Under the pieces are notes generated by a model, which saw only the letters and a list, made by a program, of their open reading frames with translations, was not told the DNA's origin and searched no databases. A stretch of DNA of 27,352 nucleotides, taken from the IMG/VR virus record IMGVR_UViG_3300034022_000380, positions 1 to 27,352 of that record; one strand, written 5' to 3'. Each line of letters starts with the position of its first letter. The first letter of the stretch is position 1. Position numbers and translations under genes: made by a program. Below are positions 4,513 through 19,698 of this stretch, one piece after another. Source of the DNA: a virus.

Positions 4513-4630
4513 GATATTCCTAACAACTAGAGGTGAGTCAGGAAGTAATACCTGCATCAATTGTCGGCTACGACTCATCCACATTATTCATGGCACAGCA
4601 TGGCTGTTTGACCGTAGGAGAATCTGTTGA
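4475..4630 (+). CDS. Possible small Cys-containing protein overlapping the lysozyme start
   Basis: A 51-residue ORF from ATG 4475, with a GTG alternative at 4505. It contains C27-x-x-C30 and a hydrophobic or aromatic run (LRLIHIIHGTAWLF), ending in Cys. Its stop overlaps the TTG start of the next gene by four bases, a junction type repeated elsewhere in this genome. It has no clear ribosome binding site and overlaps the previous small ORF by 38 bases, so it is less certain than its neighbours. Confidence 0.35.
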   Translation: MNINTEPVDVVTRIFLTTRGESGSNTCINCRLRLIHIIHGTAWLFDRRRIC

Positions 4631-5055
4631 AAAAGTTTTTCGTAGTTCTATTTGCGTTATCTGTAATGAACCCTGTATCGGTTGAAGCAAAATATGATGC
4701 TCCGCCGGCGTGGTTAGTAAAAAGAGTGCAGCAAGGGGATAGGTGTAAAAAACTTGAACCTGATATTGCTGAGGCAGGCCTTCCTGTCACCTATTTTACT
4801 TATATCGCATGGCGTGAATCACGCTGCCGAATCAACGCTATAAATGCTCGGTTCAACAAGCAAGGTAAAGTAGTGTGGGCATTGAATAGGAATGGTACAT
4901 TTGATTCAGGAGTATTTCAAATCAACTCCTCATGGAGAACTAAAACTCGTAAGGTATGCGGGGGTGATATAAAAAAGTTGATGCAATGGGAATGTAACCT
5001 AGCTATGGCAGTGAATTTATATCGTGATGGTGGATTGCACCATTGGGGTTTTTAA
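4627..5055 (+). CDS. Exported lysozyme-like transglycosylase (endolysin candidate)
   Basis: A 142-residue protein. Residues 1-21 form a signal peptide (MKKFF, hydrophobic core, cleavage after VEA). The mature part shows the SLT/goose-lysozyme pattern: Y-I-A-W-R-E64-S with the likely catalytic Glu, GVFQINSSW around residues 95-103, and WECNLAMAVNLYRDGGLHHW near the end. Cysteines 40, 67, 111 and 123 could form disulfides, consistent with an exported enzyme. It would cleave cell-wall glycan for host lysis. The start is TTG with AGGAGA seven bases upstream. No holin is adjacent, so a signal-peptide-driven lysin is possible; a role in cell entry is the alternative. Confidence 0.8.
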   Translation: MKKFFVVLFALSVMNPVSVEAKYDAPPAWLVKRVQQGDRCKKLEPDIAEAGLPVTYFTYIAWRESRCRINAINARFNKQGKVVWALNRNGTFDSGVFQINSSWRTKTRKVCGGDIKKLMQWECNLAMAVNLYRDGGLHHWGF

Positions 5056-5070: not shown

Positions 5071-6228
5071 ATGAAGTTTGGCAGTTTATTTGCCGGCGTT
5101 GGTGGTTTTGATCTCGGCTTTGAAGCAGCAGGAATAGAATGCTGTTTTCAAGTTGAATGGGATAAATACTGTCAGCAAGTTTTGGCGTACCATTGGCCTG
5201 ATGTGCCACGTTGGTCAGATGTAAGTGATGTAAAGGGTGCGGATTTACCACCTGTTGACATAATCACATTTGGTTCGCCATGTCAAGATTTGAGCATTGC
5301 AGGGAAACGTGCAGGGCTTGATGGGGGTAGAAGTAATTTGTTTTTTGAAGCAACGAGAATAATAAGGGAGATGCGTGATGCAACAAATGGAATTTTTCCG
5401 AGAGTGGCAGTTTGGGAGAACGTGCCGGGTGCCTTCTCATCTAATGGTGGAAATGATTTCGGATCAGTCTTGGACGGGTTGGCAGACGTCGGGGCGATGG
5501 GAATTGAATGGGCAGTGCTGGATGCGAGATGGTTCGGAGTCCCCCAACGCAGACGACGTATCTTTGTCATCGCTGAATTTGATCCTGCAAGAGCCTTCAG
5601 AGGTGGAGAACCTTTACTTGCTGTCGGCAAAGGCAGCGCAAGGGATCTTGAGAAGAACCTCAAACAAAAAGCAGACGCTGCCGGCAAAACTATCGGAAGC
5701 ATTAAAAATGGTGGCATCACAAAATCCCTCTCAGTAGCGGATCTCACCAAAGGGCAAACCAATAATCAAGCCGTGCAATCAGGTTTGCTACAAGTAGTAG
5801 AACAACCACTGCTTTTTGATGGCACACGGGTCAATGATGTTCGTGTCACAGATAGTGAAACGTCACCGACATTGACTAGCAGGATGGGGACGGGTGGGAA
5901 TACTGTGCCAATGATGGCGATACCTATTCAAGGCACAATCATCGGAAGGCAAGATCACAACGGACCGGGTAAAGGTTTCGGCGATGATGGTTCACCTATG
6001 TACACGATCACGCAGGCAGATACACATTTCGTAGCTACACAATACGAAGTAAGAAGATTGACTGAAATTGAATGTGAAAGGTTGATGGGATGGCCTGATA
6101 ATCACACTCTGCACAGGGCAGACGGCAAACGAACCCCTGCTACCCAAAGATACAAGATGTGTGGAAACGGTGTTGCTAGTCCTGTCGCTAAATGGGTTGC
6201 AGAACAAATAATCGCTGCCGAACCCTAA
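5071..6228 (+). CDS. DNA (cytosine-5) methyltransferase
   Basis: A 385-residue C5-cytosine methyltransferase that transfers a methyl group from S-adenosylmethionine to cytosine C5. Motifs in order: I, FAGVGGFDLGF (residues 7-17); IV, GSPCQD with catalytic Cys71; VI, ENVPG (116-120); VIII, QRRRRIF (159-165); a variable target-recognition region (about 175-325); IX, RLTEIECERLMGWPD; X, GNGVASPVAKWV. It appears complete. A strong AAGGAG lies upstream. No partner endonuclease is adjacent, so it is an orphan methyltransferase. Because a TET/JBP-type dioxygenase and a glycosyltransferase lie 3.4-4.3 kb downstream, it may supply 5-methylcytosine for further modification. Target sequence cannot be read from the protein. 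Confidence 0.97.
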   Translation: MKFGSLFAGVGGFDLGFEAAGIECCFQVEWDKYCQQVLAYHWPDVPRWSDVSDVKGADLPPVDIITFGSPCQDLSIAGKRAGLDGGRSNLFFEATRIIREMRDATNGIFPRVAVWENVPGAFSSNGGNDFGSVLDGLADVGAMGIEWAVLDARWFGVPQRRRRIFVIAEFDPARAFRGGEPLLAVGKGSARDLEKNLKQKADAAGKTIGSIKNGGITKSLSVADLTKGQTNNQAVQSGLLQVVEQPLLFDGTRVNDVRVTDSETSPTLTSRMGTGGNTVPMMAIPIQGTIIGRQDHNGPGKGFGDDGSPMYTITQADTHFVATQYEVRRLTEIECERLMGWPDNHTLHRADGKRTPATQRYKMCGNGVASPVAKWVAEQIIAAEP

Positions 6229-6344
6229 AAAACACCCGTTTAAACGTCCTTTAAGGCGTTCAAATTGACTGTTTGGTATATAGGTGCAGGGCTTTTAAAG
6301 GCATGATTTAAAAAATGTGAACAAAAGATGCCACGCCTGATCCA

Positions 6345-6364
6345 TTTGTGTATATACTAAATGT
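6345..6364 (+). promoter_or_regulatory. Promoter-like start signal, copy 2, possible leaderless start
   Basis: TTTGTGTATA at 6345-6354 is identical to 225-234 and again stands exactly 10 bases before an ATG (6365). TATACT at 6353-6358 is a good -10 box six bases before that ATG, so transcription could begin at or next to the codon. No good -35 box is seen. The gap 6229-6344 also holds a CGTTTAAACG palindrome. Confidence 0.5.
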
Positions 6365-6397
6365 ATGGCAACAACGCCTAGACAGGGAGACAACAAC

Positions 6398-6883
6398 ATG
6401 ACAACAACATTTACACTTAAAAATCTCAAAGTATGCGAATGGGCATCAGAAGAAACCACCTGCTTCACAGCAACCCTCTATGTAGATGGCAAGCGTGTAG
6501 GCGAATGCTCAAACGATGGGCATGGTGGTGCAGACCGGTACGGATTTAACGAAAAACCATTTGCAGAAATTGCCACAGAATGGTTGTATCAAGACCACAT
6601 TGAAGCCGCTCACAAATATGGTTGGAGTGTTCTAGACCGTTCAGATTTCACACCAAATTTTGAAGTACTGATTTGTGAGTTAGTACAGAAATCACTTTTA
6701 GTCAAAGATTGCAAAGCATGGAAAGCAAAATTGGTAAAAAAATATCCAGCAGCAGAATCCATTTCCGTTTATCTTGATGGCGACAAAATGTTCGCCTCTT
6801 TTTCTGCAGAAGAAACATTACAGATTCTCGCAAAAAACCCTTCAGCACGACCTGCACCAACTGAAGCAAAGGTGGTCATCTGA
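6398..6883 (+). CDS. Hypothetical accessory protein, MTTT-start family
   Basis: A 161-residue protein beginning MTTTF. The start at 6398 has GGAG nine bases upstream, and the whole initiation region is repeated before the gene at 7093. An in-frame ATG at 6365 would add 11 residues and is placed where a leaderless transcript would begin, so two starts are possible. The N-terminal 60 residues (ASEETTCFTATLYVDGKRVG, then SNDGHGGADRY) look like a beta-rich domain seen in other phage hypothetical proteins; the rest is helical. First gene of the accessory operon. Function unknown. Confidence 0.7.
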   Translation: MTTTFTLKNLKVCEWASEETTCFTATLYVDGKRVGECSNDGHGGADRYGFNEKPFAEIATEWLYQDHIEAAHKYGWSVLDRSDFTPNFEVLICELVQKSLLVKDCKAWKAKLVKKYPAAESISVYLDGDKMFASFSAEETLQILAKNPSARPAPTEAKVVI

Positions 6884-7080
6884 TGTACATAATCACTGCG
6901 GTAGGCAAAGGCAAAAACGGGTGGTATCACATCTCGCACCCGGTTTATGGATTCATCAAACAGGTGCGTGGATACAGCAACGCAATACAGCAGGTCGGGT
7001 TCTTAGATTCGCACCCACCAAAGAAAAAATCAAGAACATTCAGCACTGACGCTTACATTCAATCAATCATCAAGAAATAA
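6883..7080 (+). CDS. Hypothetical small basic protein
   Basis: A 65-residue basic protein with a likely beta-strand N-terminus (MYIITAVGKGKNGWYHI) and a Lys-rich tail (PPKKKSRTF). The ATG overlaps the previous stop by one base (TGATG). Function unknown. Confidence 0.6.
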   Translation: MYIITAVGKGKNGWYHISHPVYGFIKQVRGYSNAIQQVGFLDSHPPKKKSRTFSTDAYIQSIIKK

Positions 7081-7092
7081 GGAGACAACAAC

Positions 7093-7437
7093 ATGACAAC
7101 AACACCTACCTACAGCATGGAAGCAACAGAACTCATTCTGTACACAGAAAATGATCGGGGTACATACTTTGCATACCTTGAACCAATGTTGAGAGCAGCA
7201 ACAAAGCATTACGAAAAAGGGCAGGGGGATTACGAGAAGCTTCTTAAAGGTTTTCTGCGAGTCGCAACTGCTAGCGCAAAACAGTACACATTGGAACATG
7301 GTTCAATGGCAGAAGCATGGAACCGGGTTTTCCCGATGTCAGTTCGCAAAGAAGTAGCAAGGCATTTTGCTGAATACTTTTTGTGGGAATACCGTGCAGG
7401 AAATAAATGGGAAATAGTGAAAGGCAACAACAAATGA
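7093..7437 (+). CDS. Hypothetical accessory protein, MTTT-start family
   Basis: A 114-residue protein. Its initiation region (GGAGACAACAACATG and onward) is identical over 24 bases to that of the gene at 6398. The body contains LILYTENDRGTYFAYLEPML, a YEKLLKGFLRVATASAKQY helix, W..VFP, and VRKEVARHFAEYFLWEY. This arrangement recalls a small family of phage and plasmid proteins of unknown function that often travel with antirestriction and other accessory genes; the ArdA-like gene overlaps it immediately downstream. Confidence 0.65.
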   Translation: MTTTPTYSMEATELILYTENDRGTYFAYLEPMLRAATKHYEKGQGDYEKLLKGFLRVATASAKQYTLEHGSMAEAWNRVFPMSVRKEVARHFAEYFLWEYRAGNKWEIVKGNNK

Positions 7438-7727
7438 ACTTTTTTATGGATAAAACAGACAGAACTGCTTTCAAGTTATTTTGCGAAAACCAACATCTTG
7501 ACCACACCCAAGAGCGGCCAGGTGAAGAATTTGAACATTCTTTCCTAGGAACGTATAAATCTTTTCAGGCATTTGTGGAATACACATTTGAGGAAATATA
7601 TGAAATACCTGATTACGTTCGCAAATACATTGATTACGATTCTATGGCGCATGATTGGGAACAATCAGGGGACTATTGGTATGAAACAGTAGAAAACGAT
7701 TGCTACGTTTTTGATGGTTGCCCATGA
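7434..7727 (+). CDS. Short ArdA-like antirestriction protein
   Basis: A 97-residue acidic protein from an ATG that overlaps the previous stop (ATGA). Residues 36-93 match the ArdA pattern: SFLGTYKSFQAFVEYTFEE, an IPDYV stretch, YIDYDSMAHDW, then YVF at the end. ArdA proteins are acidic DNA mimics that inhibit type I restriction enzymes. Typical ArdA is about 160-170 residues, so this is roughly the central or C-terminal part only and may be a minimal or degenerate form. Its accessory-operon position, on a phage with a probable DNA modification pathway, fits host-defence evasion. Confidence 0.65.
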   Translation: MNFFMDKTDRTAFKLFCENQHLDHTQERPGEEFEHSFLGTYKSFQAFVEYTFEEIYEIPDYVRKYIDYDSMAHDWEQSGDYWYETVENDCYVFDGCP

Positions 7728-8062
7728 TGAACCGCCCGACACTTTTTGACGAACAGTTAGCGATGGCATTGGCACAGCAGGCAATCAACCAAGTTGAAGA
7801 AAATGCTAATCAACAATGGATGGATGAAGCATTAGAGGTAGTTAAAAGACTTTCAAAGACTTTCAATTTATTTACTACAGATGATGTGTGGAATTGGATG
7901 CAGTATCTTCACCCTGATTCAGAAACACATGATAATCGTGCGATGGGTGCAGTAATGCGCAAAGCCGCTCGGGGCAAGCTTTGTATTCCAACAGATAAAT
8001 ACATTAAATCCAACCGCACATCTTGCCACCATCGCCCGATCAGGGTATGGAAAGGTATCTAA
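7724..8062 (+). CDS. Hypothetical protein with a winged-helix-like C-terminus
   Basis: A 112-residue protein from ATG 7724 (ATGA overlap); ATG 7727 is equally possible. The C-terminal half (FTTDDVWNWMQYL, then RAMGAVMRKAARGKLCIPTD, then SCHHRPIRVWKGI) follows a pattern common in phage accessory proteins: helix, helix, then a beta wing that ends in C-H-x-R-P-x-R-V-W. That suggests a small DNA-binding winged helix, but the role is not established. Confidence 0.6.
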   Translation: MMNRPTLFDEQLAMALAQQAINQVEENANQQWMDEALEVVKRLSKTFNLFTTDDVWNWMQYLHPDSETHDNRAMGAVMRKAARGKLCIPTDKYIKSNRTSCHHRPIRVWKGI

Positions 8063-8112
8063 TGAACAAGCAAAACACCATAAACCGGCAAATCAACCAG
8101 AAGGAGAAATAA
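8062..8112 (+). CDS. Possible 16-residue leader ORF
   Basis: ATG 8062 overlaps the previous stop by one base and opens a 16-codon ORF rich in Lys, Gln and Asn. Its last codons (AAG GAG AAA TAA) contain the ribosome binding site of the gene at 8114, so it could couple translation. It may equally be chance. Confidence 0.2.
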   Translation: MNKQNTINRQINQKEK

Positions 8113-8113
8113 A

Positions 8114-8326
8114 ATGGGAGTTCAAAGATCATTCACTGCACAATGCGACAAATGCGGTTTTCACGCTGACCACTTCGCATACAAAACAGCGACAGAACTA
8201 CGGAAAAAGTGTTTAGGAAACCTGTGGACTATATCAGGCAACAAATTCACCTGCCCTACTTGTAACAAAAAGAACCCTGAATACGTCAGGTACTACGAAA
8301 TGGTAGCGAACAATGAGAGTAACTAA
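8114..8326 (+). CDS. Small zinc-ribbon protein
   Basis: A 70-residue protein with two zinc knuckles: C11-D-K-C-G near the start and C47-P-T-C50-N near the end, separated by about 33 residues. This is a classical four-Cys zinc ribbon, usually a nucleic-acid or protein-binding fold. There is also a lone Cys at 33. AAGGAG lies seven bases before the ATG. No specific role is recognised. Confidence 0.65.
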   Translation: MGVQRSFTAQCDKCGFHADHFAYKTATELRKKCLGNLWTISGNKFTCPTCNKKNPEYVRYYEMVANNESN

Positions 8327-8513
8327 CCAAACTAATTGGAACAGAACAAAAAAGTTCATGATCTTCATCCTTGTGCTAGCAGCATTAGGGATGGTTGGTG
8401 GACTTAACGAATCAATGGATGTTGAGATATCCGCTGATAGGTACGGCTTCGCATATTTATTTATGGGTTGTGCCGGTTACTTAGTGTTCACCATCATGCG
8501 CAAACCACACTAA
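8313..8513 (+). CDS. Small membrane protein with two predicted transmembrane helices
   Basis: A 66-residue protein from ATG 8313, overlapping the previous gene by 14 bases. A basic N-terminus (WNRTKK) precedes a hydrophobic helix at about residues 15-31 (FMIFILVLAALGMVGG), a short acidic loop, then a second helix at about 47-62 (AYLFMGCAGYLVFTIM) and a basic end. This would suit a class II holin, but it is 3.3 kb from the lysozyme gene and such small membrane proteins have many roles. It is the last gene before a strong terminator. Confidence 0.55.
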   Translation: MRVTNQTNWNRTKKFMIFILVLAALGMVGGLNESMDVEISADRYGFAYLFMGCAGYLVFTIMRKPH

Positions 8514-8538
8514 ATATATTCTCCCCCCTGAGAAGTAG

Positions 8539-8571
8539 AAAGCCTCACCTGAAAGATGGTGGGGCTTTTTG
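8539..8571 (+). terminator. Rho-independent terminator
   Basis: AAAGCCTCACC (8539-8549) pairs with GGTGGGGCTTT (8558-8568) through 11 base pairs with a single T-G wobble, around the loop TGAAAGAT. The run of five T from 8566 completes the signal. It closes the accessory operon that begins near 6365. Confidence 0.9.
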
Positions 8572-8585
8572 CTATCCCCAACCTG

Positions 8586-8604
8586 ATGTGATCTAGAGTC
8601 ACAT
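8586..8604 (+). promoter_or_regulatory. Operator-like inverted repeat upstream of the second accessory operon
   Basis: ATGTGATCTAGAGTCACAT has perfect 6-base half-sites (ATGTGA and TCACAT) separated by 7 bases. It resembles CRP/FNR-type sites, but their spacer is usually 6. It lies between the terminator and the ATG at 8609, where an operator for the operon leading to the dioxygenase and glycosyltransferase would be expected. Confidence 0.45.
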
Positions 8605-8608
8605 ATCT

Positions 8609-8755
8609 ATGAAGATCGCAGACATTGAATCAGCAATCTATTTCCTGCAAAGAGTCGTGCCTAGAGGCGACAACGAAACCGATGAACTCCTCAGAACAGT
8701 GTTCATCTTGCAGCAGGAGATAAACAAACGCCGAAAGCCTGTGGATAAATCCTAA
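8609..8755 (+). CDS. Small helical protein
   Basis: A 48-residue charged protein beginning MKIADIESAIYFLQ and ending with a basic helix (EINKRRKPVDKS). It is the first ORF after the terminator and the inverted repeat at 8586-8604. There is no clear ribosome binding site, but the ATG is close enough to the putative control region that leaderless translation is possible. Composition is protein-like throughout. Function unknown. Confidence 0.5.
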   Translation: MKIADIESAIYFLQRVVPRGDNETDELLRTVFILQQEINKRRKPVDKS

Positions 8756-8777
8756 ATGTATATGGCAGACTTTGGGC

Positions 8778-8996
8778 ATGGGTGAATCATACGAAGCCGA
8801 TTACTACAAGAGCGTCACCGACGACTTGAGGGTGAGTAACGAGCGGTTGAACGAAACTGTCACAGAGTTACGCCATCGGTGCGCTACAGGTGATAAGGCA
8901 ATCTCTTTAATCCTGCAATTACTCAATTGTTTAGAAGATGGGCGACCTATAGAAGATAAAATCGCAAAAATGCACCATTTCATTCACGCTGAATAA
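8778..8996 (+). CDS. Small coiled-coil-like protein
   Basis: A 72-residue acidic protein. Residues 8-35 (YYKSVTDDLRVSNERLNETV and following) show a heptad-like spacing of hydrophobics, followed by a helical hydrophobic segment (AISLILQLLNCLEDG). ATG 8778 is preferred over the in-frame TTG at 8772. Upstream ribosome binding is weak. Function unknown. Confidence 0.5.
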   Translation: MGESYEADYYKSVTDDLRVSNERLNETVTELRHRCATGDKAISLILQLLNCLEDGRPIEDKIAKMHHFIHAE

Positions 8997-9022
8997 TCAA
9001 AACCTGCTAACAAAGGAAACCT

Positions 9023-9643
9023 GTGATCCGTCCTGAAATACAAAGCCTTGCTACCCCGATTGCCAAGTTAAAAGCACACCCGAATAACGTGCGACAGGGC
9101 GACGTCGGAGCAATCAGTCAATCGCTTGAACAACATGGGCAGTATCGCCCAATCGTGGTGCAACAATCAACCGGTTACATTCTTGCCGGCAACCACACAT
9201 ATAAAGCCGCCGTCGCCCTAAAGTGGAAAGAAATAGCAGCCACTTTCGTTGATGTAGATGACGAACAAGCATTGCGAATACTGCTAGTGGACAACCGTGC
9301 GAACGACTTAGCTATGTATGATGACGCAGCATTAGCAGAAGTTTTGAAATACCTCGACTCAACGAATGCAGGGCTTGAAGGCACTCTTTTTGACGGTGAC
9401 GATCTTGATGATCTCATGTTCAGGTTGAACGGCACACTCGGTTCTGGCCATGAAACACTCTCAGCGCAAGATGCATTAGAAGGTTATCTAGGCAGAGATA
9501 CTAAAACGCTCGCACTACCTTTTTCATCTGATGATTATGAATCAGTAATTACACAATGTAATGAAATGCGTAAAAAGTTGAAGATTGAAACAAATAGCCA
9601 ATTATTTCAACATTTGCTCGGTCAAAAAAATGTTGATCGTTAA
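9023..9643 (+). CDS. ParB-fold (ParB/Srx) nuclease-like protein
   Basis: A 206-residue protein from a GTG with AAAGGA upstream. Residues 9-100 are a ParB-type domain: IAKLKAHPNNVRQG, SLEQHGQYRPIVVQ, then GYILAGNHTYKAAVAL with the GNHR-like loop, and LLVDNRANDLAMYD. It is not a partitioning ParB: there is no central HTH and no ParA. Phage proteins of this fold are thought to bind nucleotides or DNA, and some have been proposed as nucleases or as partners in DNA modification. It overlaps the dioxygenase gene by 14 bases, so the two are translationally coupled. The C-terminal 90 residues have no recognised motif. Confidence 0.8.
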   Translation: MIRPEIQSLATPIAKLKAHPNNVRQGDVGAISQSLEQHGQYRPIVVQQSTGYILAGNHTYKAAVALKWKEIAATFVDVDDEQALRILLVDNRANDLAMYDDAALAEVLKYLDSTNAGLEGTLFDGDDLDDLMFRLNGTLGSGHETLSAQDALEGYLGRDTKTLALPFSSDDYESVITQCNEMRKKLKIETNSQLFQHLLGQKNVDR

Positions 9644-10487
9644 AAAGGAATATGATCTAAATAATTTGCAAGGCATCACGAGGAATAAAACCGTTCCTGA
9701 TCATCGTGATGGCACAGACCAAGATTTGATAATCATAGATTCTGTAACCAAAGAACCGGTCGTATTGCAAATCACACTCAATCAATTAAAGCCAGATATG
9801 CGTGAACTAGCTAGGCAGTTACGGTTCCTGAAAATCAATTGGTCTGACCCACACGGAAAACTTACTAAATCTGAACGGCTGTCTGGCATAGGTTCAAACA
9901 ACGTCACTTTCGGGCACACAGCTCCAAACGCAATGTACAAACGCCACGCAGCAAGGATCGCCCCGATCCACCTTGAATCACCGACAACTGCAAATTTATT
10001 GACATCCTTAGTGAAGCCGGCATGGGAACAATTTCAGTTACACCTGCCTGAAGTAGCGCAAAAGCATCAACAATCAACATCAAACGCCATACACAATGAT
10101 TGGCTGCTAGAACAAACACCCTTCACATCAGGCATTTGCAACCACACTTCTGTATTGCCATATCACAAGGATGCAGGCAACCTTTCAGGTGCATGGTCAA
10201 TGATGCTATGCAGTAGAAAAGACGTTGATGGGGGTGGGCTACACATTCCCGAATACGATGTGACGCTAGCTATCCCAGATTGTTCACTCACCATTTTCTG
10301 TGGCCAGAAACTGCTACATGGCGTGACACCATTAGTTTACAAGAAAAAAGGTGCTTATCGGTTCACAATCGTTTACTACACGAAACAAGCATTATCTAAC
10401 TGCGGAGCCGCAGCAGACGAAACACTCAGGGCTCAAAAACGTGCAACAGCGATAACAGAAAGACAACTAAGCAGGAATGCAGACTGA
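9630..10487 (+). CDS. TET/JBP-family 2-oxoglutarate/Fe(II) dioxygenase (5-methylpyrimidine oxygenase candidate)
   Basis: A 285-residue double-stranded beta-helix dioxygenase. The iron ligands are H179-K-D181 and H230; R244 would bind 2-oxoglutarate. Surrounding sequence matches the TET/JBP pattern rather than generic prolyl hydroxylases: FTSGICN (165-171), YHKDAGN (178-184), GGGLHIPEYDVTLAIPD, FCGQKLLHGVTP, YRFTIVYYTK and a C-terminal Cys258. TET/JBP enzymes oxidise 5-methylcytosine or thymine in DNA. ATG 9630 is chosen over an upstream TTG at 9585 inside the ParB-like gene. It is followed, with an 11-base overlap, by a glycosyltransferase. A C5 methyltransferase occurs in the same window. 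Substrate is inferred, not seen. Confidence 0.82.
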   Translation: MLIVKKEYDLNNLQGITRNKTVPDHRDGTDQDLIIIDSVTKEPVVLQITLNQLKPDMRELARQLRFLKINWSDPHGKLTKSERLSGIGSNNVTFGHTAPNAMYKRHAARIAPIHLESPTTANLLTSLVKPAWEQFQLHLPEVAQKHQQSTSNAIHNDWLLEQTPFTSGICNHTSVLPYHKDAGNLSGAWSMMLCSRKDVDGGGLHIPEYDVTLAIPDCSLTIFCGQKLLHGVTPLVYKKKGAYRFTIVYYTKQALSNCGAAADETLRAQKRATAITERQLSRNAD

Positions 10488-11436
10488 CAAAAAAATATTC
10501 ATCCTTTATGCTGCAAAGCCAAACTATGGTGGATGGATCACCTTCACTGCACACCTTTATAGAGGTTTACAAAAAGCAGGATTTAAACCCGTCCTGTTAA
10601 AAGCAGGCAATAAATCAGAACAAAAAGTAAGACCCTTCGGCCGTGGTATCTACTACCAAAACATCGCACCATCAGATCTAGTGAAGATAGCTGCTCAACA
10701 GCCATTCTTGATATCTGCGATGGATAAGCACCATCACAAAGTAGTCGCACAACTATTAGAACAAAACGCATCAATAGTCGTGCATGATCCAACTGAAATG
10801 AAACCCGGCATCACTGAACTGCTGCAACAAGCGAGAACCGTAGTCATCAGGGAAACGATGCTGAAACACCTACCGAAAGCAACATTTATCCTGCACCCAT
10901 ACGATCCTGCATCGCCAAGAGTAAAAGACAAACGCAAGATGGCAGCATCCATATCACGGATAGATTTCGATAAACACACCGAAATCATCGTCAAAGCTAA
11001 CCAACAACTGCATCAACCGATAGACATATACGGCTTCCGCAACCCAACGTTCGCACACTTCACACTGAACGAAATAGATCCTCAATGGAAGAACAACTAC
11101 TTAGGGCAGTTTGAAACAAGAAGCCTATGGTCTGCAGTACAAATCGCAACACACTATGAGACGATCGTAGATATGAGTGCAATCAAAGGCGACGGTGGTG
11201 GCACACAATACACATTCCTAGAAGCGATAGACGCCGGCGCCAACCTGATACTCAACACCAAATGGGAAGCACAGGGGTTATTGGCAGAGTACGCAGAACA
11301 CGTTTCCGACCCTGAAAGTCTAATGGCAGCACTATCACGGCCTTACAGACCTACCCCACAGCTAGGACAGCAAATACTCGCACTACACAACGCAGCAGAG
11401 ATCGCATCCAAATACTACGAAACCATCACGGCTTGA
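10477..11436 (+). CDS. GT-B glycosyltransferase, putative DNA base glycosyltransferase
   Basis: A 319-residue GT-B-fold enzyme. The N-terminal domain starts KIFILYAAKPNYGGW (glycine-rich acceptor loop near residue 18) and continues TFTAHLYRGLQKAGFKPVLL. The C-terminal donor domain carries KGDGGGTQYTFLEAIDAGAN (residues 238-255), the GT4-like segment with its conserved Glu249. There is no signal peptide or membrane segment, so it acts in the cytoplasm. Overlap with the TET/JBP gene strongly suggests joint action, by analogy with phage operons in which such enzymes add sugars to 5-hydroxymethylcytosine. Donor sugar is unknown. Base usage here is A/C-rich, unlike the late genes. Confidence 0.75.
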   Translation: MQTDKKIFILYAAKPNYGGWITFTAHLYRGLQKAGFKPVLLKAGNKSEQKVRPFGRGIYYQNIAPSDLVKIAAQQPFLISAMDKHHHKVVAQLLEQNASIVVHDPTEMKPGITELLQQARTVVIRETMLKHLPKATFILHPYDPASPRVKDKRKMAASISRIDFDKHTEIIVKANQQLHQPIDIYGFRNPTFAHFTLNEIDPQWKNNYLGQFETRSLWSAVQIATHYETIVDMSAIKGDGGGTQYTFLEAIDAGANLILNTKWEAQGLLAEYAEHVSDPESLMAALSRPYRPTPQLGQQILALHNAAEIASKYYETITA

Positions 11437-11439
11437 ACA

Positions 11440-11736
11440 ATGAAGATACCAAAGCCCTGCCTCACCTGTGGCACAGCAACCACTCACGGCTCACGATGCC
11501 CCGAATGTGAGAGCGAAAGACAAGCGAGACGCAACCAACGCAGAACCCACTACCAAGGCGACTACAGGCAAAGAGCCAAACAAGTACGACAGAACGCTGT
11601 CATCTGCTGGATATGCCACGAACCACCAAGACCCAACGACCCTTGGCAAGCAGACCACATAGACCCGGCAAACCCCAACAGCCCACTAGCACCCGCACAT
11701 AGGTCATGCAACATCAAACGACGCTTCAAACCATGA
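11440..11736 (+). CDS. HNH endonuclease
   Basis: A 98-residue protein. An N-terminal zinc ribbon (C7-x-x-C10, then C20-x-x-C23) is followed by a basic linker. The HNH motif is at the C-terminus: CWICHE, then WQADHIDP with the catalytic His, a PNSPLAP loop, and AHRSCNIKRR. Phages with HK97-type heads commonly encode an HNH protein directly before the terminase, where it aids genome packaging and cleavage. Here the small terminase follows after 141 bases. It starts three bases after the glycosyltransferase stop. Confidence 0.9.
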   Translation: MKIPKPCLTCGTATTHGSRCPECESERQARRNQRRTHYQGDYRQRAKQVRQNAVICWICHEPPRPNDPWQADHIDPANPNSPLAPAHRSCNIKRRFKP

Positions 11737-11755
11737 CCACGCAAAGTGGTTACAC

Positions 11756-11775
11756 CCCCATACGCTTTATAGGGG
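11756..11775 (+). promoter_or_regulatory. Hairpin at the boundary between accessory and late genes
   Basis: CCCCATA (11756-11762) pairs with TAT-a-GGGG (11768-11775) around CGCTT. A second small hairpin, GGGT-CAAA-ACCC, follows. The 141-base gap 11737-11877 is where strand base skew changes, and it may contain a terminator and the late promoter; I cannot identify convincing -35/-10 boxes. Confidence 0.35.
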
Positions 11776-11877
11776 AGTGGGTCAAAACCCGTATAGACAC
11801 GCCATGCAGTACCCAATGGCAGGCAGGCGTATGCGATGGCAGCGAAAGATGTTTTATGATTACCACAAGGAGTGTTT

Positions 11878-18453: not shown

Positions 18454-19698
18454 ATGGGTAATGCTCGTAAACATAAAAGGAACAATCGTGGAACTCCCGA
18501 TACCGGAAGCACAACAACTTCTGAGGTTGGGTTACGCACAGGAACTAGAAACAGCAACAATGGAAACGGGAGACAGATTCTCTTCTACTCCAATGCGCCG
18601 TGGTCAGCAACAGGCTACGGGCAACAAACAGCGCAACTCTGCACAAGGCTCAAAGAAGCAGGGAACAATGTTGCCATCCACGCCAACTACGGATTAGAAG
18701 GCGCAACTACCGTTTGGAACGGTTTCACGGTTTACCCTAAAGGCAACTCTGTTTATTCTGATGATGTAATGGTTGCCCATTATCTGCATTGGGCGCACAG
18801 GGAACCCGATATCAAACCTTTGCTGATGACTCTTTACGATGTGTGGGTTTTCAAATCGCAATCGTTTGATGCTGTAGAACAGATCGTTTCGTGGGTTCCT
18901 ATAGATCACACTCCTTGCCCCCCTGATGTGTTGGCGTGGTGCAATCGACCTAACGTGACCCCTGTAGCGATGAGCCTGTATGGGCAGAAGATGTTGCATC
19001 AGGCAGGTGTTGATGCTTTGTATGCCCCTCACGGTATTGAACGTGTGTTCAAACCTACGCCGGGTGGTAGGAAGATTTTGGAGATCCCTGAGGATCGGTT
19101 TGTTGTGATGATGACTGCAGCGAACAAAGGCGCAAGCCCACCACGTAAAGCATTTGCTGAGAACATTCTTGCATTTGGTGTTTTCTGTAAGAAGCATCCT
19201 GAAGCGTTGCTGTATTTGCATACAGAAAAACATGGGGTTCATGGCATCAATCTCATTGATTTATTGAAAGCGTGTGGGGTTCCTGAAGCCAACTATCAGT
19301 TCGTGGATCAGTACGCCTACCAAATGGGTATATCTCAGGAAGTGCTTGCATCGTTCTATACAGCTGCTGATGTGTTGTTGGCTGTGTCGATGGGTGAGGG
19401 TTTCGGTATTCCTGTTGTCGAGGCGCAAGCGTGTGGTACACGGGTGATTGTTTCTGATCAGACTGCTCAACCTGAACTTGTTGGGGATGGGTGGCTTGCC
19501 AAATCTCAACCGTTTTGGGATCACGCTCAGAGAGCGTTTTTCCATACACCTTTCACGGAATCTATTTTGGAATGCCTAGAGTCAGCGTGGGATGCACCCC
19601 GTACAACGTCGCAGGATGCGCTAAACCACGCAAAGCACTATCAGGCAGATGAAGTGTTTAGAAACCATTGGAAGCCGATTATGGGGCTTCTCAGTTGA
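18454..19698 (+). CDS. GT4-type glycosyltransferase with anomalous N-terminus
   Basis: A 414-residue GT-B enzyme. From residue 40 it looks normal: QILFYSNAPWSATGYGQQTA, then the C-terminal GT4 signature MGEGFGIPVVEAQACG (E-x7-E, near residue 314), and SDQTAQPELVG. Residues 1-39 are Asn/Thr/Gly/Arg-rich and unlike a glycosyltransferase start. This stretch is the shifted-frame reading of the small ORF at 18461. No other start codon exists in this frame before the enzyme core, so translation begins at ATG 18454, or arises by -1 frameshifting from 18461, or an indel is present. Substrate could be DNA-linked sugar or a virion protein. Confidence 0.8.
   Translation: MGNARKHKRNNRGTPDTGSTTTSEVGLRTGTRNSNNGNGRQILFYSNAPWSATGYGQQTAQLCTRLKEAGNNVAIHANYGLEGATTVWNGFTVYPKGNSVYSDDVMVAHYLHWAHREPDIKPLLMTLYDVWVFKSQSFDAVEQIVSWVPIDHTPCPPDVLAWCNRPNVTPVAMSLYGQKMLHQAGVDALYAPHGIERVFKPTPGGRKILEIPEDRFVVMMTAANKGASPPRKAFAENILAFGVFCKKHPEALLYLHTEKHGVHGINLIDLLKACGVPEANYQFVDQYAYQMGISQEVLASFYTAADVLLAVSMGEGFGIPVVEAQACGTRVIVSDQTAQPELVGDGWLAKSQPFWDHAQRAFFHTPFTESILECLESAWDAPRTTSQDALNHAKHYQADEVFRNHWKPIMGLLS
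18461..18697 (+). CDS. Small head-connector-like ORF overlapping the glycosyltransferase in another frame
   Basis: ATG 18461 has AAGGG ten bases upstream. The first 33 residues (LVNIKGTIVELPIPEAQQLL, then RLGYAQELETATM) read like a genuine small phage head or connector protein, and share a GTIVE and Gly-hydrophobic pattern with the small protein at 23045. From about residue 38 the sequence turns into low-complexity Ser/Gln/Lys (RRGQQQATGNKQ), the shadow of the overlapping glycosyltransferase, up to the stop at 18697. The N-terminal part is probably real; the tail may not be. Confidence 0.45.
   Translation: MLVNIKGTIVELPIPEAQQLLRLGYAQELETATMETGDRFSSTPMRRGQQQATGNKQRNSAQGSKKQGTMLPSTPTTD

Follow-up and report, generated by a model that had tools for sequence, protein, structure and literature searches.

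A three-gene string in the window, a fragment of viral DNA 27,352 bp long and listed as 'linear' in IMG/VR (IMGVR_UViG_3300034022_000380), encodes a ParB-like protein, a dioxygenase of the TET/JBP type and a glycosyltransferase (GT) of the GT-B fold. Judging from the gene neighborhoods of its relatives, there is a slightly better than even chance that the string is a post-replicative module for thymine hypermodification. A preliminary description of the window had instead joined these three genes to a C5 cytosine methyltransferase (C5-MT) encoded further upstream, as a full pathway for making glycosylated 5-hydroxymethylcytosine (5hmC). DNA hypermodification is supported as the likely role and all four genes are intact, but the C5-MT falls outside the conserved unit, which consists of ParB, TET and a variable tailoring enzyme.

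In the proposed mechanism the ParB-like protein would bring the dioxygenase to phage DNA, and the dioxygenase, whose catalytic residues and predicted fold are observed, would hydroxylate thymine in DNA at its 5-methyl group, giving 5-hydroxymethyluracil (5hmU). The GT-B enzyme would then add a sugar to the hydroxymethyl group, and the resulting base-J-like base would shield the phage DNA from host nucleases. The C5-MT would be a separate orphan enzyme. A more specific claim, in which we place somewhat less than even confidence, is that the module may be a phage counterpart of base J, with a ParB-guided TET/JBP enzyme and a dedicated GT-B enzyme acting on replicated thymine and the tailoring gene swapped between near-identical phages.

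The gene string and its dioxygenase

The C5-MT, ParB-like, dioxygenase and GT open reading frames are complete, all on the + strand, and placed as the preliminary description had them. ParB and TET overlap by 14 bp and TET and GT by 11 bp, while the C5-MT gene lies 2.8 kb upstream, outside the overlapping string.

The dioxygenase matches the Pfam family Tet_JBP with 33.1 bits, against a gathering cut-off of 34.9. Its iron triad and 2-oxoglutarate-binding arginine (H179, D181, H230 and R244), already picked out in the preliminary description, are invariant in 71/71 aligned relatives, as are N171, N184, Y250 and E264. The AlphaFold model (pLDDT 91, from a 22-sequence alignment) was matched by VIA to TET2 (Z 20.8), NgTET1 (19.7), CMD1 (18.3) and CcTet (17.4), with lower scores for FTO (15.3) and ALKBH3 (14.6). 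On the predicted fold, which is nearer to TET/JBP than to FTO or AlkB, the dioxygenase is a true member of the TET/JBP clade. This ranking rules out a prolyl-hydroxylase or AlkB identity and settles the doubt about prolyl hydroxylases that the preliminary description had raised. The label 'queuine tRNA-ribosyltransferase', which phrog_6059 and many RefSeq records bear, is also ruled out, by Pfam and fold; TETs seem to have acquired it through PHROG/RefSeq transfer.

Searching the PDB by sequence gave no match, and searching viral contigs with a single TET or GT sequence returned nothing. Profiles were needed to recover the relatives, and a profile search put the ParB-TET family at about 320 viral-contig candidates. 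Upstream of TET, at no more than 3 kb, a ParB homologue was found in 69/69 loci, these being the loci with at least 1.5 kb of upstream sequence among 80 viral contigs, the annotated phages and the window. In the annotated phages the layout is ParB, TET, 0-3 tailoring genes and terminase. The window's ParB-like protein has GNHT where the canonical motif is GERR, and is a predicted partner of the dioxygenase, for DNA targeting or regulation.

The tailoring slot and the GT-B family

The position behind TET is an exchangeable slot. It may hold a GT-B, a GT-A, an amino acid:DNA transferase (ADDT, PF18724) plus P-loop kinase 3 (PF18751), or an FkbM methyltransferase; in the window no kinase or ADDT was matched and the slot is filled by GT-B. 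The slot GT-A, about 270 aa long, is TAGT-like by iterated profile but weakly so by hhalign, and matches phrog_842, an alpha-glucosyltransferase, at 1.4e-7. Records L031 and L041 are 86% identical both over TET and over HNH-terminase, with unrelated transferases between, a GT-A in one and a GT-B in the other. Similarly, L036 and L039 share 92.5% of nucleotides over ParB-TET and 89% downstream of the slot, but carry a PF18751 kinase and a GT-A respectively. A tree of 84 TET sequences requires 29 or more changes of slot label, with the seven GT-B carriers placed on seven separate tips. Tailoring domains are also found fused to TET: L035:3801-5789 is a TET-ADDT fusion and L043:728-2335 a TET-FkbM methyltransferase fusion, with L051:3859-5430 of the same size and profile label.

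Across slot types the catalytic residues of TET are unchanged. In the TET alignment, GT-slot and kinase-slot members are not told apart by any column, and no pocket residue that discriminates thymine from 5-methylcytosine (5mC) was found. Because the slots swap while no TET column tracks the slot, the simplest inference is that TET has one substrate and one product, with the decoration interchangeable. Families such as ADDT and P-loop kinase 3 take their names from thymidine hypermodification.

Relatives of P-loop kinase 3 are present in 385 phage records, compared with the 89 that have a TET. In several cluster B mycobacteriophages such a relative is gene 1, and many of these relatives are labelled 'terminase small subunit' or 'adenylate kinase', apparently by PHROG/RefSeq transfer. 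Genes for an amidoligase (PF12224) and a class-II glutamine amidotransferase-like protein lie ahead of ParB-TET in a close relative (L017:5992-8106 and L003:1652-3627), and Arthrobacter phage Ottawa is annotated with the same pair of functions.

No significant Pfam, PHROG or NCBIfam match was found for the window's GT, and its family had no match among 50,697 phage records. Its AlphaFold model (pLDDT 88, seven relatives) has the GT-B fold that the preliminary description had proposed and is GT4-like, with Z of 19-23 to many GT4 enzymes over about 300 residues in VIA. T4 alpha-glucosyltransferase (AGT) is within the tied top matches (Z 21.9, about 305 residues). Two stretches, SRxDxDK and DGGGTQYxFLEA, are invariant in the GT's relatives and would fit the nucleotide-sugar site of a GT4 enzyme.

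A profile search gave 80 loci of this GT-B family, and 84 were analyzed in all. They fall largely into two homes: 42/84 are beside a TET, and 33/84 are beside HMUDK_hel-type and/or ThyA-like genes, often with a radical SAM gene. Among the TET-less records, 31/38 have PF18723 (HMUDK_hel, the 5-hmdU DNA kinase helical domain) and 0/38 have a C5-MT; PF12851 was likewise found in 0/38, a weak negative as the search matched in no control genome either. The ThyA-like enzyme beside GT-B can be aligned to CMP hydroxymethylase as well as thymidylate synthase; in 23/23 resolved sequences its base-specificity position is Asn, of the uracil type, whereas enzymes specific for cytosine carry Asp there. In T4 dCMP hydroxymethylase, Asp at that position decides for cytosine (PMC6400193). 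The two homes, TET on one side and HMUDK_hel/ThyA-like on the other, suggest that the GT-B family serves two sources of hydroxymethyl-pyrimidine, one of them a uracil source. Altogether, both homes point to 5hmU.

Thymine or cytosine as the substrate

Linkage between TET and C5-MT was assessed by a PF00145 search over whole records. No C5-MT was found in the 15 complete ParB-TET phage genomes (0/15) or in the 35 closest viral TET relatives. In wider sets it was found in 7/80 viral records, in 5/50 of a second TET clade and in 5/39 TET+GT-B records, the last being three independent cases once near-duplicates are removed. Reciprocally, a TET is present in just 1/50 of the records selected for the C5-MTs closest to that of the window. 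The C5-MT is not enriched with GT slots (2/40, versus 5/40 for other slots; Fisher p 0.43), and C5-MTs are frequent passengers in phages at large, one query having found them in 1,641/50,697 records, about 3%. These counts and the slot-independent presence place the C5-MT outside the conserved module, and the claim that it supplies the TET substrate is not supported. TET is kept in phages free of C5-MT, and its substrate there is therefore not phage-made 5mC; thymine is the other 5-methylpyrimidine. Together with the ADDT/kinase alternatives in the slot and the uracil-type second home of GT-B, the missing C5-MTs favor thymine as the TET substrate.

The record whose C5-MT is closest to the window's (L053:4338-6794 / L155; 69%, N-terminal part) carries ParB-TET as well; there the slot is of the kinase/ADDT type, and the methyltransferase open reading frame is 818 aa long.

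Several points weigh against thymine. The window phage has an intact C5-MT, which it could still use, and the rate in TET+GT-B records (5/39, plus the window) is mildly above the phage background of about 3%. Many of the records are fragments, in which the absence of a C5-MT is weak evidence, and the count is firm for the 15 complete genomes. Where GT-B lies beside HMUDK_hel, its acceptor may be something besides 5hmU itself. For the PF18751 kinases and ADDT beside TET, we know of no test of base specificity, and in Burke 2021 phage TETs are said to oxidize 5mC.

The rival is the route of the preliminary description, in which the C5-MT would methylate cytosine after replication, TET would oxidize 5mC to 5hmC and the GT would glycosylate 5hmC. 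C5-MT, TET and GT are intact together in one genome, a C5-MT is present in three more independent TET+GT-B records, the window's GT is close in structure to T4 AGT, an enzyme acting on 5hmC, and phage TET systems with a C5-MT and GT reportedly act in this way (Burke 2021, Pyle 2024). We regard it as a serious rival that is nonetheless less probable than the thymine route, since C5-MT and TET are unlinked in either direction, the C5-MT is about as frequent in records with GT slots as in those with others, and the other home of the GT-B family is a 5hmU system. Less probable still is a dual route, with a TET that accepts both 5-methylpyrimidines, making 5hmU everywhere plus 5hmC where the phage owns a C5-MT, and a GT that glycosylates either. 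It would draw on the HxD+3 position, which is Asn (N184) in 71/71 aligned TETs; TET2 has Asn there as well and NgTET1 has Asp, and an amide is able to pair with either base. A crystal structure of T4 AGT with 5-hydroxymethyluracil (HMU) DNA also exists.

The GT might instead act away from DNA, on a component of the virion or host surface, leaving TET alone to yield plain 5hmU or 5hmC. Capsids and host envelopes are frequent targets of phage GTs, but such a role fits better a second GT of the window, which by its position immediately behind the gene for the major head protein is a candidate for virion (capsid) rather than DNA glycosylation. The GT-B reading frame overlaps that of TET, and almost all loci of its family are by DNA-base modification genes (42 TET and 33 HMUDK/ThyA of 84), which leaves a non-DNA target very improbable. 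The thymine route, in which the C5-MT takes no part, is the account to which we return below.

Neighboring genes, host range and known systems

The features of the window discussed here are collected in the table. After the GT the gene order is HNH, then terminase, portal, protease and major head protein, and the HNH gene is kept at the same position in L018, L019, L029, L031, L034 and L041. Between the HNH and terminase genes, at about 11737-11871, the + strand shows a sharp flip of GC and AT skew, and L031, L041 and L017 have a similar C/A-rich stretch near the slot-HNH end. A genome end (cos) is probably located near 11737-11871, with the contig running across it.

Table. Position, strand and supporting matches of features in the window
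Feature	Position	Strand	Support
Secreted lysozyme/transglycosylase-like protein, directly ahead of the C5-MT	4627-5055		Weak SLT match
C5-cytosine DNA methyltransferase, orphan, 385 aa, PCQ Cys71	5071..6228	+	PF00145 DNA_methylase 3.7e-61; dcm superfamily
ArdA-like antirestriction protein, short, covering just the C-terminal part, ahead of the ParB-TET module	7407-7727		PF07275 2.8e-10
ParB-like (ParB/Srx fold) protein	9023..9643	+	PF02195 ParB_N 1.2e-7; phrog_723 7.3e-41
TET/JBP-clade Fe(II)/2-oxoglutarate dioxygenase, 285 aa from ATG 9630	9630..10487	+	PF12851 4e-8; structure matches
GT-B (GT4-like) glycosyltransferase in the tailoring slot behind TET	10477..11436	+	AlphaFold/Foldseek/VIA
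HNH endonuclease, end of module, slot flank, outside the pathway	11440..11736	+	phrog_144 4.2e-5
Second glycosyltransferase, immediately behind the gene for the major head protein	18454-19698		phrog_2170, PF00534

The 89 annotated phage records with a relative of the window's TET are nearly all actinophages, and include phages of Mycobacterium, Gordonia, Microbacterium, Arthrobacter and Rhodococcus. TET relatives are also found on the bacterial genome contigs L325, L326 and L327, which come from an Actinomycetes metagenome-assembled genome, Brevibacterium and Corynebacterium and are presumably prophages. Because the relatives sit in actinophages and on these contigs, the host range seems to be actinobacterial and the host of this virus is probably an actinobacterium, in line with the preliminary description.

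TET-based hypermodification in phages is already known. As far as the literature consulted shows, what is new is the pairing of ParB-TET with this GT-B family, the family's link to 5hmU and the mapped cassette exchange. If the thymine route is true, phage TETs would be split by substrate, with the large ParB-TET family as a thymine-oxidizing, JBP-like branch. It would also provide a bacterial setting in which base-J-type chemistry could be studied, along with new enzymes for placing sugars on thymine in DNA. The swapped slot offers natural pairs of phages which differ mainly in their tailoring enzyme, so that what each decoration guards against becomes directly testable. A C5-MT elsewhere in a genome would not by itself be proof of a cytosine pathway.

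The closest known systems are ParB-TET operons of actinophages (Mycobacterium cluster B, Microbacterium Matzah, Gordonia CaiB and Rhodococcus Tonitrus), which like the window have a ParB-like gene directly before TET/JBP, just upstream of terminase, and a dioxygenase of the same family at 29-40% identity. These operons mostly use a P-loop kinase and an ADDT/aGPT-type transferase, whereas the window uses GT-B. The ParB-TET-aGPT-kinase genes of Tonitrus carry a published annotation of thymidine hypermodification (PMC11955845). The Arthrobacter phages Bolt007, Prairie and Bumble (ParB, TET, TAGT GT-A, deacetylase) resemble the window in having a GT after ParB-TET and have no C5-MT, but they use a GT-A (PF20691-like) and a sugar deacetylase rather than GT-B, and their order relative to terminase differs. 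For Bumble, part of the record has no annotation, and an intact-looking ParB-TET-GT-A-deacetylase region falls within it (L012:7001-7549).

The phage systems for 5hmC, reportedly described in Burke 2021 PNAS and Pyle 2024 Cell Rep, also have a C5-MT, a TET and a GT in one genome; in the window, however, the C5-MT is unlinked to the TET module and the comparisons point to thymine. Phages with thymidine hypermodification based on 5-hydroxymethyldeoxyuridine (5hmdU), using HMUDK_hel, aGPT-Pplase and ADDT and reportedly described in Lee 2018/2022, are connected to the window through the same GT-B family, which lies by HMUDK_hel, ThyA-like and radical SAM genes in 33 loci. Their hydroxymethylase makes 5hmdU before replication, whereas the window's TET would make it in DNA. 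According to a 2019 paper, glucosylated 5hmdU had not been reported from phages (PMC6449724).

The kinetoplastid base J pathway (JBP1/2 and the J glucosyltransferase, JGT) likewise combines a TET/JBP oxygenase with a GT acting on the hydroxymethyl group. The 285-aa protein of the window has only the Tet_JBP match, with neither the J-binding domain of JBP1 nor the SNF2 domain of JBP2, and its GT-B is presumably distinct from the JGT family. The two are not homologous as systems, but the chemistry of their products is predicted to be alike.

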